A DNA stretch of 64,000 nucleotides. Origin: Desulfomarina profundi. GTDB taxonomy: Bacteria; Desulfobacterota; Desulfobulbia; Desulfobulbales; Desulfocapsaceae. The notes under the pieces were generated by a model. That model had not been told where the DNA came from. It worked only from the letters and a program-made list of their open reading frames with translations, and did no database searches. The stretch is taken from contig NZ_AP024086.1 in NCBI RefSeq assembly GCF_019703855.1, positions 3,616,501 to 3,680,500 on the forward strand. The letters run 5' to 3'. The position numbers and the translations under genes were made by a program. This document shows positions 12,055 through 14,512 of this stretch, in pieces (the first letter of the stretch is position 1; each line of letters starts with the position of its first letter).

Positions 12055-13332
12055 ATGGACTTTTATTCTTTATTTATACCAACCAGTCTCGCACTCAGCT
12101 GGATGCTTTCCCCCGACGCCCTCATCCTCCAGGGAAACGGCGCTGGCCTGTATGGAAATACTTTTTACTTCATGCTGACAGTCGGTTTTCTTCTTGCTGT
12201 TGGCTGTATCTTCCTTTTCCGGCATCAGGCATTGGGACCATATGCCGGCAATACATTTTCCTGCCTCACTGAAACAACAGGTATTTTTCCGGCAGCAACA
12301 CTCATTCTGGCCGGGCGGACAAGTCTGGCTCTTTTTCTCCCCACGGGAATACTTGTCACCGCCGGTTTCACCTTTAATGAAATATTTCTCTACTGGTTTC
12401 CAAATTTCGGTTTCAGCTTTATTCTTCTCTTCTTTGTTCTGCTGCTCCACCTGCTGGGAGAAAAAACAGCCCTTACTCTACAACCTCTCTTTGTTGGAAT
12501 TGCATTTTCAGGACTCCTTTTTCTCTCCCTCTATGGGTTCACAGGCCAGGCTGCACCTCAACAGGAACAACCGGAGCTCTCCTTTTCCAACGTGTTATCC
12601 ATACCAGCCGGAGCCCTGCTGCTCTTTCTGGGATTTGATTTCAAAGTGAACAGGCATGCAGCACCGCTCAACCCTGAAAACTCTCATAAAAACAGGAATT
12701 ATATCTTCCTTGCTCCAGTTTTGGGCTACGTTTTATTCATGCTCTGGAGCAGGGTGTCCCTTGACACTGTAGAGGCGGCAAAACTCTCCACATCAACAAT
12801 ACCTTACCTGTTTGTCGCCCGGGAAACCCTGGGACAAACCGGCAGAATTATAATAGGGGTGACAATTATAAGTGGTACCCTTGCCTGCGTGAACGGCCTT
12901 TTTCTTCAAACCAATAATACCCTGGTGGAGCTCTCATCTGTTCTTTTTCAACGTTTCTCCATCGGTCCCTCCGTTCATACCAGGATTTACCCTGTTATTT
13001 TTTCTGTTCTAATCGGCGTTTTCATGATGACAGGCATGGCCGGCAGTGAAAACCTTGAAATCTATATCAGGGGCAGCCTGCTGCTCTGGCTTTTTCTTGT
13101 CATCATGCACTGTTTTGCTGTTGCAAGAATTCTTCAGAAAACAAACTTATTCATTTCTGCCACAGGATATGGTCTTGGAATTATTCTCTTTTCAAGTTTC
13201 TGTCCGCTCCTGCTCTCTTTTCATGAAAAATTTTCCCTGCTGATCTTCTGCTCCATTGTTTTGATGACCGCAGCACTGGCTGCAAAAGGATTATTGCCTG
13301 CCGGCAATAAACAATTGATACATAAACCTTAG
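12055..13332 (+). CDS. APC-superfamily-like membrane transporter, substrate unknown
   Basis: 425 residues with about 11-12 hydrophobic helices and no soluble domain. Features that fit amino-acid/polyamine/organocation-type carriers are a Gly-rich first helix region, a loop P-Y-A-G-N-T near 78, and a long central loop (A-A-P-Q-Q-E-Q-P-E) between helices 5 and 6. I assign only the superfamily, with moderate trust; no substrate motif is visible. The selenocysteine-type rhodanese gene begins 18 bp downstream on the same strand with its own AAGGAG site, so the two are probably co-transcribed, which hints at a sulfur- or selenium-related solute. That last point is inference. Confidence 0.55.
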   Translation: MDFYSLFIPTSLALSWMLSPDALILQGNGAGLYGNTFYFMLTVGFLLAVGCIFLFRHQALGPYAGNTFSCLTETTGIFPAATLILAGRTSLALFLPTGILVTAGFTFNEIFLYWFPNFGFSFILLFFVLLLHLLGEKTALTLQPLFVGIAFSGLLFLSLYGFTGQAAPQQEQPELSFSNVLSIPAGALLLFLGFDFKVNRHAAPLNPENSHKNRNYIFLAPVLGYVLFMLWSRVSLDTVEAAKLSTSTIPYLFVARETLGQTGRIIIGVTIISGTLACVNGLFLQTNNTLVELSSVLFQRFSIGPSVHTRIYPVIFSVLIGVFMMTGMAGSENLEIYIRGSLLLWLFLVIMHCFAVARILQKTNLFISATGYGLGIILFSSFCPLLLSFHEKFSLLIFCSIVLMTAALAAKGLLPAGNKQLIHKP

Positions 13333-13350
13333 CTTTTAAGGAGAAACACC

Positions 13351-13740
13351 ATGAAAAAACTTATTACCTTTCTACTGGCAATGACCTTCCTGATGTCTGG
13401 GCAGGTCTTGGCTGCATCTATTGCCAGAATGGATAAAGATGAGCTGAAATCATTGCTCGGCGATAAAAACCTCGTGGTTCTTGATGTCAGAGTGGGGAGA
13501 GACTGGAATTCGAGTGAGTTTAAAATCAAAGATGCTGTCAGAATGGCCCCATCGGATATCGATCAGGTGGAGAAATATCCTAAAAATACCAAACTTGTTC
13601 TCTACTGTGCCTGACCCAGCGAATTTACAAGCGCCCGGGTGGCGCAGAAATTATTGGAAAGAGGATACAGTGACGTTCACGCCCTTAAGGGTGGCTGGAG
13701 GGAGTGGTTCCGGGCAAAATACCCGGTAGACCCAAGGTAG
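13351..13740 (+). CDS. Secreted single-domain rhodanese with catalytic Cys replaced by an in-frame TGA (probable selenoprotein)
   Basis: 129 residues if TGA at 13612-13614 (codon 88) is read as selenocysteine. Signal peptide 1-21 (ends V-L-A-A). A rhodanese domain follows with L-D-V-R near residue 47. The catalytic loop reads L-Y-C-A-[TGA]-P-S-E-F-T-S-A-R, where ordinary relatives have Y-C-A-C-P-x-E. The frame stays open and family-like after the TGA (A-L-K-G-G-W-R-E-W-F) to a TAG at 13738-13740. A SECIS-like hairpin follows the TGA (separate entry). The RBS is AAGGAG. Rhodaneses move sulfane sulfur (or selenium) through a persulfide on this residue, here in the periplasm. Selenoprotein rhodaneses are known from sulfur-cycle deltaproteobacteria. 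A nonsense mutation is the alternative but explains neither the exact position nor the hairpin. Confidence 0.85.
13612..13652 (+). promoter_or_regulatory. Bacterial SECIS-like element following the TGA codon
   Basis: Upper stem GCGCC (13631-13635) pairs perfectly with GGCGC (13641-13645) around a 5-nt loop CGGGT that has G at its second position. A lower stem AATTT (13622-13626) pairs with AAATT (13648-13652), separated by a small internal loop. The upper stem starts 16 nt after the TGA. Stem, small loop with an early G, and this distance match what SelB recognises in bacterial selenoprotein mRNAs. Confidence 0.75.
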
Positions 13741-13834: not shown

Positions 13835-13870
13835 AAAAGACCCGGAACCTGAATATACCCCGGGTCTTTT
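13835..13870. terminator. Bidirectional terminator between rhodanese and comEA-like genes
   Basis: Stem AAAAGACCCGG pairs with CCGGGTCTTTT around a ~14-nt loop; the T-run on one side and A-run on the other serve both convergent genes. Confidence 0.75.
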
Positions 13871-13893: not shown

Positions 13894-14325
13894 TCAGATT
13901 TTTTTCAGAAACGGCTTTAATTTGGCCAGGGTTTTTTCACCAATGCCCTTAACCTCAATGAGATCTTTTGCGTTTTTAAATTTGCCGTTAGTTTTCCTGT
14001 ACTTGAGGATTGCCTCTGCAGTTTTGGGTCCGATTCCAGGAAGCTGCATGAGCAATTCTTTATCAGCGCGGTTGATATCCACGTTTTTCGGAAAATCTCC
14101 GGTTATTATTTTTGTTTTCTTTTTCGTAGTTTTTTTCTTTGCTGTTTTAGTTTTCTTTGCTTTCTTTCTGGTTTTGCTCTCTGTTTTGGCCTTTGCAGCC
14201 ATTTTATCAGTCTTCTTTCCCGTAACTTCATGACTGGTCGATTTTGCAAAAACCTGGTCCGGTACTACAGAAAAACTGAAAACACAGGCTAACATGATTG
14301 CGACACATACAGATGTAAGTTTCAT
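13894..14325 (-). CDS. ComEA-like secreted helix-hairpin-helix DNA-binding protein
   Basis: 143 residues. ATG at 14325 is chosen for its AGGAGA ribosome site and the signal peptide that follows (about 1-26, ending near V-F-A). A very Lys/Thr-rich linker (about 33-75) leads to a ComEA-type domain: V-D-I-N-R-A-D, then two helix-hairpin-helix motifs, L-P-G-I-G-P-K-T-A and V-K-G-I-G-E-K-T-L. ComEA proteins bind DNA in the periplasm during natural transformation; short ComEA-like proteins also occur widely without known competence. The lysine-rich tether could add non-specific DNA binding. No other competence gene is nearby, so the in-vivo role is open. Confidence 0.8.
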   Translation of the reverse strand: MKLTSVCVAIMLACVFSFSVVPDQVFAKSTSHEVTGKKTDKMAAKAKTESKTRKKAKKTKTAKKKTTKKKTKIITGDFPKNVDINRADKELLMQLPGIGPKTAEAILKYRKTNGKFKNAKDLIEVKGIGEKTLAKLKPFLKKI

Positions 14326-14512
14326 TGAATTCTCCTTTTTCATTTCATGATTGTAATTATCTCCATATCGAGAGTTCTTTTTTGAACAGATACGAAGAAG
14401 GGTTTGTTCCGTTTTTCCGGATTGGCCCCATATTACAATTCGAAACTTACAATTTTCCCACACTCCCTACCACTTTCTTACCCTTTCTTTACAAAAAAAA
14501 TCGGCAAAATAA

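Follow-up and report, generated by a model that had tools for sequence, protein, structure and literature searches.

A reading frame in the genome of Desulfomarina profundi raises the question of whether its single internal TGA codon ends a short protein or specifies selenocysteine (Sec) in a full-length rhodanese and, in the latter case, what such an enzyme might do. The frame lies in the window, by which we mean the whole 64,000-nt stretch of contig NZ_AP024086.1 analyzed here (positions 3,616,501–3,680,500). It runs on the plus strand (13351..13740) from an ATG at 13351 through the TGA at 13612–13614 to a TAG stop at 13738–13740 and would encode 129 amino acids; a standard-code reading ends the gene at residue 87, and the remainder of the enzyme is then easy to miss. 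We put at about 80% the probability that this is a genuine selenoprotein gene encoding a Cys86-x-Sec88 rhodanese, whose likely role is sulfane-sulfur redox chemistry outside the cytoplasm and which is probably co-expressed with a transporter.

Family assignment and conservation of the TGA codon

An earlier note on this DNA, made from the letters alone, had described rhodanese homology on both sides of one TGA, and profile searches bore this out. The protein matched the NCBIfam profile NF041203, "rhodanese_LYCAU, (seleno)protein", over residues 7–128 (model positions 3–125 of 126) with an E-value of 1.9e-51 and 173 bits against a curated cut-off of 115 bits, and Pfam Rhodanese (PF00581) with an E-value of 2.4e-12 and 47.6 bits against a cut-off of 22.2. 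The LYCAU motif corresponds to residues 84–88, with TGT for Cys86, the first residue of the CxU pair, at 13606..13608 (+) and the TGA at the U. The AF2 model (pLDDT 90.1) has a rhodanese fold, which Foldseek matched to 3tp9 and 6mxv (E 6.5e-9). By profile and fold, then, the protein is a member of NF041203, a family already catalogued, and is in itself no new type. A Shine-Dalgarno-like AAGGAG read from the sequence (13338..13343, +) precedes the start codon, and residues 1–21 (13351..13413, +), judged by eye, look like an export signal peptide, so that the protein is probably exported. Behind the gene, an inverted repeat with a T run resembles a terminator (13835..13870, listed on the minus strand) and lies between converging genes; six terminator-like sites were found in the region versus 3.6 expected. 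The gene converging on it from the other side of this repeat (13894–14463, minus strand) encodes a helix-hairpin-helix protein, which we take to be ComEA-like.

Within the host's family, 48 of 93 genomes had NF041203 matches over the cut-off, and each of the 52 matches contained exactly one internal TGA, at the same codon in all 30 loci read, among them that of the window. None of the homologues read ends at the TGA, and the three genus-mates read (L050, L051 and L057) share it, making the sequencing error that the earlier note had considered unlikely. In a sample of 395 genomes from the phylum, 61 had an over-cut-off match; a hand count from the match table divides their 84 matches into 75 with at least one TGA, eight with no stop and one with a TAA only. 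The TGA stood at the Sec codon in 27 of the 28 new phylum loci read, the remaining one (L148, with one TGA and one TAA) not matching the motif used. Comparison among these homologues indicates that the odd TGA at 13612..13614 (+) is almost certainly read as selenocysteine 88.

Six of the eight stop-free matches encode Ser at position 88, and two are CxC forms (L176 and L177). Five of the Ser88 paralogues (L178–L183, all over the cut-off) keep Cys86, and L183 has lost that residue too; Ser at this position in six over-cut-off paralogues suggests that some copies can do without Sec. Four genomes contribute these Ser88 paralogues, and in three of the four a copy with TGA was found as well. Contigs of named genomes were also scanned, and the 80 loci kept comprise 47 with TGA, one (L106) with two TGA and 32 with Cys. 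The Cys relatives that the earlier note had proposed to look for do align at codon 88, and 31 of the 32 are distant. The other, L090 of Desulfatitalea (L090:169-564), falls within the Sec subfamily, has TGT at the Sec codon and retains all five hairpin pairs; it probably represents a recent Sec-to-Cys change.

The hairpin behind the TGA and the selenocysteine machinery

The hairpin claimed earlier is present as described, 16 nt behind the TGA, and consists of GCGCC (13631–13635), the loop CGGGT and GGCGC (13641–13645), together 13631..13645 on the plus strand. The limits for bSECIS elements quoted in the accessible text of a 2026 review (PMC13188914) are a loop of 3–9 nt, a stem of 4–16 bp, G in the first two loop positions, a distance of 16–37 nt from the UGA and an MFE of −7.5 or below; the window hairpin lies within all of them, with a 5-nt loop, G second, a 5-bp stem, a spacing of 21 nt and −13.2. 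Folding of 49 nt gave this −13.2 kcal/mol with a z of only −1.4, and 16 of 200 shuffles were equally stable. The energy by itself is therefore not decisive, and we rejected single-hairpin folding energy as too weak for proof.

RNAalifold run on 30 loci found the apical stem, one pair of which is UA in 29 loci and CG in the window, whose GCGCC/GGCGC differs from the usual GUGCC/GGCAC by a compensated change. Across 86 distinct Sec loci the 5-bp stem is paired in 427 of 430 cells (99.3%), against only 22–53% for versions slid along the alignment, and G occupies loop position 2 in 86 of 86. Three pairs covary, with 11 cells changed on both sides versus a shuffle mean of 1.0 (0/500 shuffles); related rows inflate such counts, and Cys relatives were used as the control. 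The complete set of five pairs is present in 83 of the 86 Sec loci versus five of 31 CxC relatives. Codon choice at two positions is also uneven: Ser94 is AGT in 77/86 Sec loci, as against 68/409 other Ser codons of the named TGA genes, and Ala98 is GCA in 75/86, as against 116/532 other Ala codons. The apical hairpin is, on this comparative evidence, conserved and covarying across Sec loci.

The outer stem proposed around it, AATTT (13622–13626) with AAATT (13648–13652), fared less well. Its arms are present (13622..13652, +) and are predicted by RNA folding to pair in the window, but the stem is not conserved: it pairs in 47.5% of cells across the 86 loci, versus 46.5% when slid by +1, and its covariation score of 0.101 is exceeded by the 0.159 of that slid version. 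Shuffles matched its pairing in 3/500 and its covariation in 12/500 cases, results attainable by related sequences without structure. We therefore rejected it as a part of the bSECIS.

The Sec genes named for checking in the earlier note are all in the host genome, a single contig of 4.31 Mb. They comprise selA (635 bits) and selB (364 bits), both over their cut-offs, a tRNA-Sec (selC) scoring 75 bits against a gathering score of 47 with the ARAGORN anticodon tca, that is UCA, and two selD genes over the cut-off (L018 and L019), each with one in-frame TGA, at G000:C1:3598297-3599223 and 581421-582347. The former lies ~17 kb before the window start and ~31 kb from the rhodanese. With this machinery, SelB carrying Sec-tRNA would recognize the hairpin that follows the UGA, and position 88 would receive selenocysteine. 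The genome holds two further TGA-containing multi-domain rhodanese frames, L007 (~3464786, minus strand) and L002 (~594060, plus strand), with the rhodanese loops FYCGGPTU and FFCKGPGU, respectively.

The upstream transporter and the UxU relatives

Upstream of the rhodanese lies a gene for a 425-aa membrane protein (12055..13332, +) that recurs as its neighbor; 18 nt separate the end of this gene from the start of the rhodanese. The window protein had no Pfam match above cut-off, the amino-acid-permease model included, and no NCBIfam match; one of the four homologues scanned (L067) reached AA_permease_2 (PF13520) with 29.1 versus a cut-off of 27. The AF2 model of the upstream protein (pLDDT 92.3, pTM 0.93) has an APC-type fold, with AdiC as the best Foldseek match (TM 0.78), and the 50 matches listed included AdiC, BasC, ApcT, LAT, CAT, KimA, NKCC1, LysP, Nramp-type chains and the like. 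The APC-type transporter of the earlier note is thus upheld as far as fold is concerned.

Searches by tblastn within short flanks placed the transporter at 24 of 29 other family loci and missed it at five. It was within 700 nt upstream in 41 of 49 named loci and absent from six of the 47 assessable ones, two being too short; at L100, one of these six, there is a fragment overlapping the rhodanese start. With the starts chosen, the two frames overlap by 4 nt in 15 of 39 loci. Strong matches (E < 1e-50) numbered 12 in the 395 phylum genomes (the window's own included), and each of the 12 had an over-cut-off rhodanese just downstream, encoded on the same strand of the same contig, so that the transporter was present in 12 of the 61 rhodanese genomes of the sample. 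A weaker match (G139:C228, 1.5e-28) lies ~0.8 kb from a rhodanese match but in the opposite orientation; matches with E-values of about 1e-14 to 1e-10 align chiefly with the last two thirds of the profile and probably belong to other permeases. Six genus-mates, drafts 72–88% complete, gave no strong match in any case and one weak one (2e-7), and five of the six have the rhodanese. Nor was the transporter found within 6 kb upstream in the near relative L059 or at any of the UxU loci fetched (those with TGA at both positions of the pair). We rejected a rhodanese strictly dependent on the transporter, since rhodanese-bearing genus-mates show no strong match to the transporter and some named rhodanese loci lack it. 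In the host genome itself, the two genes are probably co-expressed. A search of mostly open-access literature found no paper that joined a rhodanese, an amino acid permease and a selenoprotein.

The UxU form occurs in 12 relatives from 11 of the 395 phylum genomes, all of which were read (L147/L184, L153/L185, L156/L186 and L167–L175; G211:C3 falls below the NF041203 cut-off); the two-TGA locus of the named contigs, L106, encodes the protein also found at L168. On a tree of 128 rows, UxU requires seven changes, at least five of them by well-supported branches. The rows were picked by motif, the 111 columns leave many weak forks, and the tree does not tell gains from losses. Three UxU proteins (L171:2872-4542, plus strand; L172:1801-3438, minus; L174:2638-4569, plus) and one CxU protein (L200:1629-3287, minus) are fused in frame to a segment that contains eight CxxCH haem motifs. 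Pfam Multi-haem_cyto was found in both fusions scanned with Pfam, and the three scanned with NCBIfam matched NF041203 best and hydrazine dehydrogenase-type cytochromes weakly. Together, the UxU forms and the 8-CxxCH fusions hint at electron transfer at both positions. Searches of the same mostly open-access literature found no UxU rhodanese in print, and the term "UxU" was not found in the accessible text of PMC13188914.

Proposed roles for the Cys86-x-Sec88 pair and comparison with known systems

The role of Sec-containing rhodaneses is left open in the accessible text of two sources (PMC13188914, PMC9312934). Other rhodaneses are discussed in the context of sulfur disproportionation (PMC12998232, PMC9751629, PMC5516251), and the words selenoprotein and selenocysteine are absent from the accessible text of these three papers; a link that would make the present rhodanese a marker of sulfur disproportionation was looked for there and not found.

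All 58 aligned homologues carry Cys or Sec in columns 86 and 88 (U being shown as C), the six Ser88 paralogues lying outside this alignment. The earlier note had put the TGA exactly at the persulfide cysteine. Ungapped alignments to 6mxv, in which Sec88 is opposite the 6mxv cysteine, agree with that placement, whereas hhalign to E. coli GlpE, with a two-residue gap, favors the invariant Cys86 two residues before, setting it on the Cys of the GlpE MCYHGNSS loop, presumably the catalytic Cys65. Given two possible registers for the canonical nucleophile, we treat CxU as a Cys86-x-Sec88 pair in which either residue is a candidate for the catalytic place.

We propose that, outside the cytoplasm, Cys86 and Sec88 would work together as a redox pair whose substrate is sulfane sulfur. 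One of them would take up sulfur as a per(seleno)sulfide, and the other would release it or pass it on; the S–Se bond left over would then be reset by an electron carrier, which in the fused relatives may be the multihaem cytochrome. The reverse, oxidative direction is equally possible. The APC-fold transporter may move a sulfur (or selenium) compound or a product. A broader picture, which we advance tentatively and rate a little short of an even chance, is that the rhodanese and the transporter, itself undescribed so far, make up a two-gene sulfane-sulfur redox system in part of the family, while sister lineages have repeatedly become UxU, some fused to an octahaem-type cytochrome, with electrons passing via an S–Se or Se–Se bond. 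Electron exchange at both positions is hinted at most clearly by the cytochrome fusions and by the replacement of the first Cys with Sec in UxU forms.

The strongest alternative, appreciable though on balance doubtful, is an ordinary sulfurtransferase in which Cys86 is the nucleophile and carries the persulfide, Sec88 does no more than tune or resolve it, and there is no redox cycle. The GlpE register fits this account, as does the AF2 model, in which the strand at 81–85 stops right before Cys86 and a helix begins at 92. So do the retention of Cys86 in five of the six Ser88 paralogues and the loops of the two other host TGA rhodaneses, which keep FYC or FFC and have the TGA further along. The 6mxv register speaks against it, and so do the UxU forms, in which Cys86 itself becomes Sec. 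A role in selenium metabolism, in which the protein would handle selenide or perselenide to detoxify or supply selenium and the transporter would carry a selenium compound, seems unlikely: the host does have two TGA-containing selD genes, one ~31 kb away, and at least three TGA-containing rhodaneses, but the rhodanese is not directly adjacent to selD and nothing specific to a selenium substrate was found. That the TGA is a true stop, a sequencing error or the mark of a pseudogene, with the frame behind it a relic, would match the 87-aa product of the standard code and is rejected as barely credible because genus-mates and other members of the family share the TGA, the protein sequence behind it is conserved, the hairpin covaries and the Sec machinery is complete. 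In its main points the earlier note had thus read the gene correctly.

The Cys86-x-Sec88 redox pair, as the preferred reading, sits in a protein without essential difference from "Rhodanese-like domain-containing protein form 3", which the accessible Table 1 of PMC13188914 gives as NF041203, CxU, with one Sec; the two share the LYCAU motif, the single Sec and nearly the whole model. That one Sec compares with two in the 12 UxU relatives found here. The accessible parts of other sources list a CxU form of COG0607 (PMC9312934) and a rhodanese-like selenoprotein in a marine deltaproteobacterium (PMC8318568). The 31 Cys loci whose loop reads YCAC (L107–L138 minus L114) have the same active-site loop with Cys for Sec but differ in their 29–39% identity, the long upstream frames of most, the lack of Sec and a full hairpin in only 5/31; the sole one scanned, L107, is VTT_dom + Rhodanese. 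TsoB (NF045694) is also a Sec-containing rhodanese, as a fusion, according to the accessible text of PMC13188914, but the window protein scores 21 bits against its cut-off of 805. ExtKL (NF040886), described there as a Sec-containing multihaem protein, was not among the matches listed for the three fusions scanned.

E. coli GlpE and Francisella 6mxv share the rhodanese fold but, unlike the window protein, have no CxC/CxU pair in the aligned loop. The upstream protein has the overall fold of AdiC, BasC and LAT-type APC transporters (TM up to 0.78) at ~15% identity. APC amino-acid transporters carry a GSG-type motif, which was not seen in the first helix of the upstream protein. The partner gene and the UxU forms, both less familiar than the catalogued rhodanese family, are what merits following up; together with the cytochrome fusions, they offer concrete handles on the role of Sec-containing rhodaneses in sulfur-cycling anaerobes.
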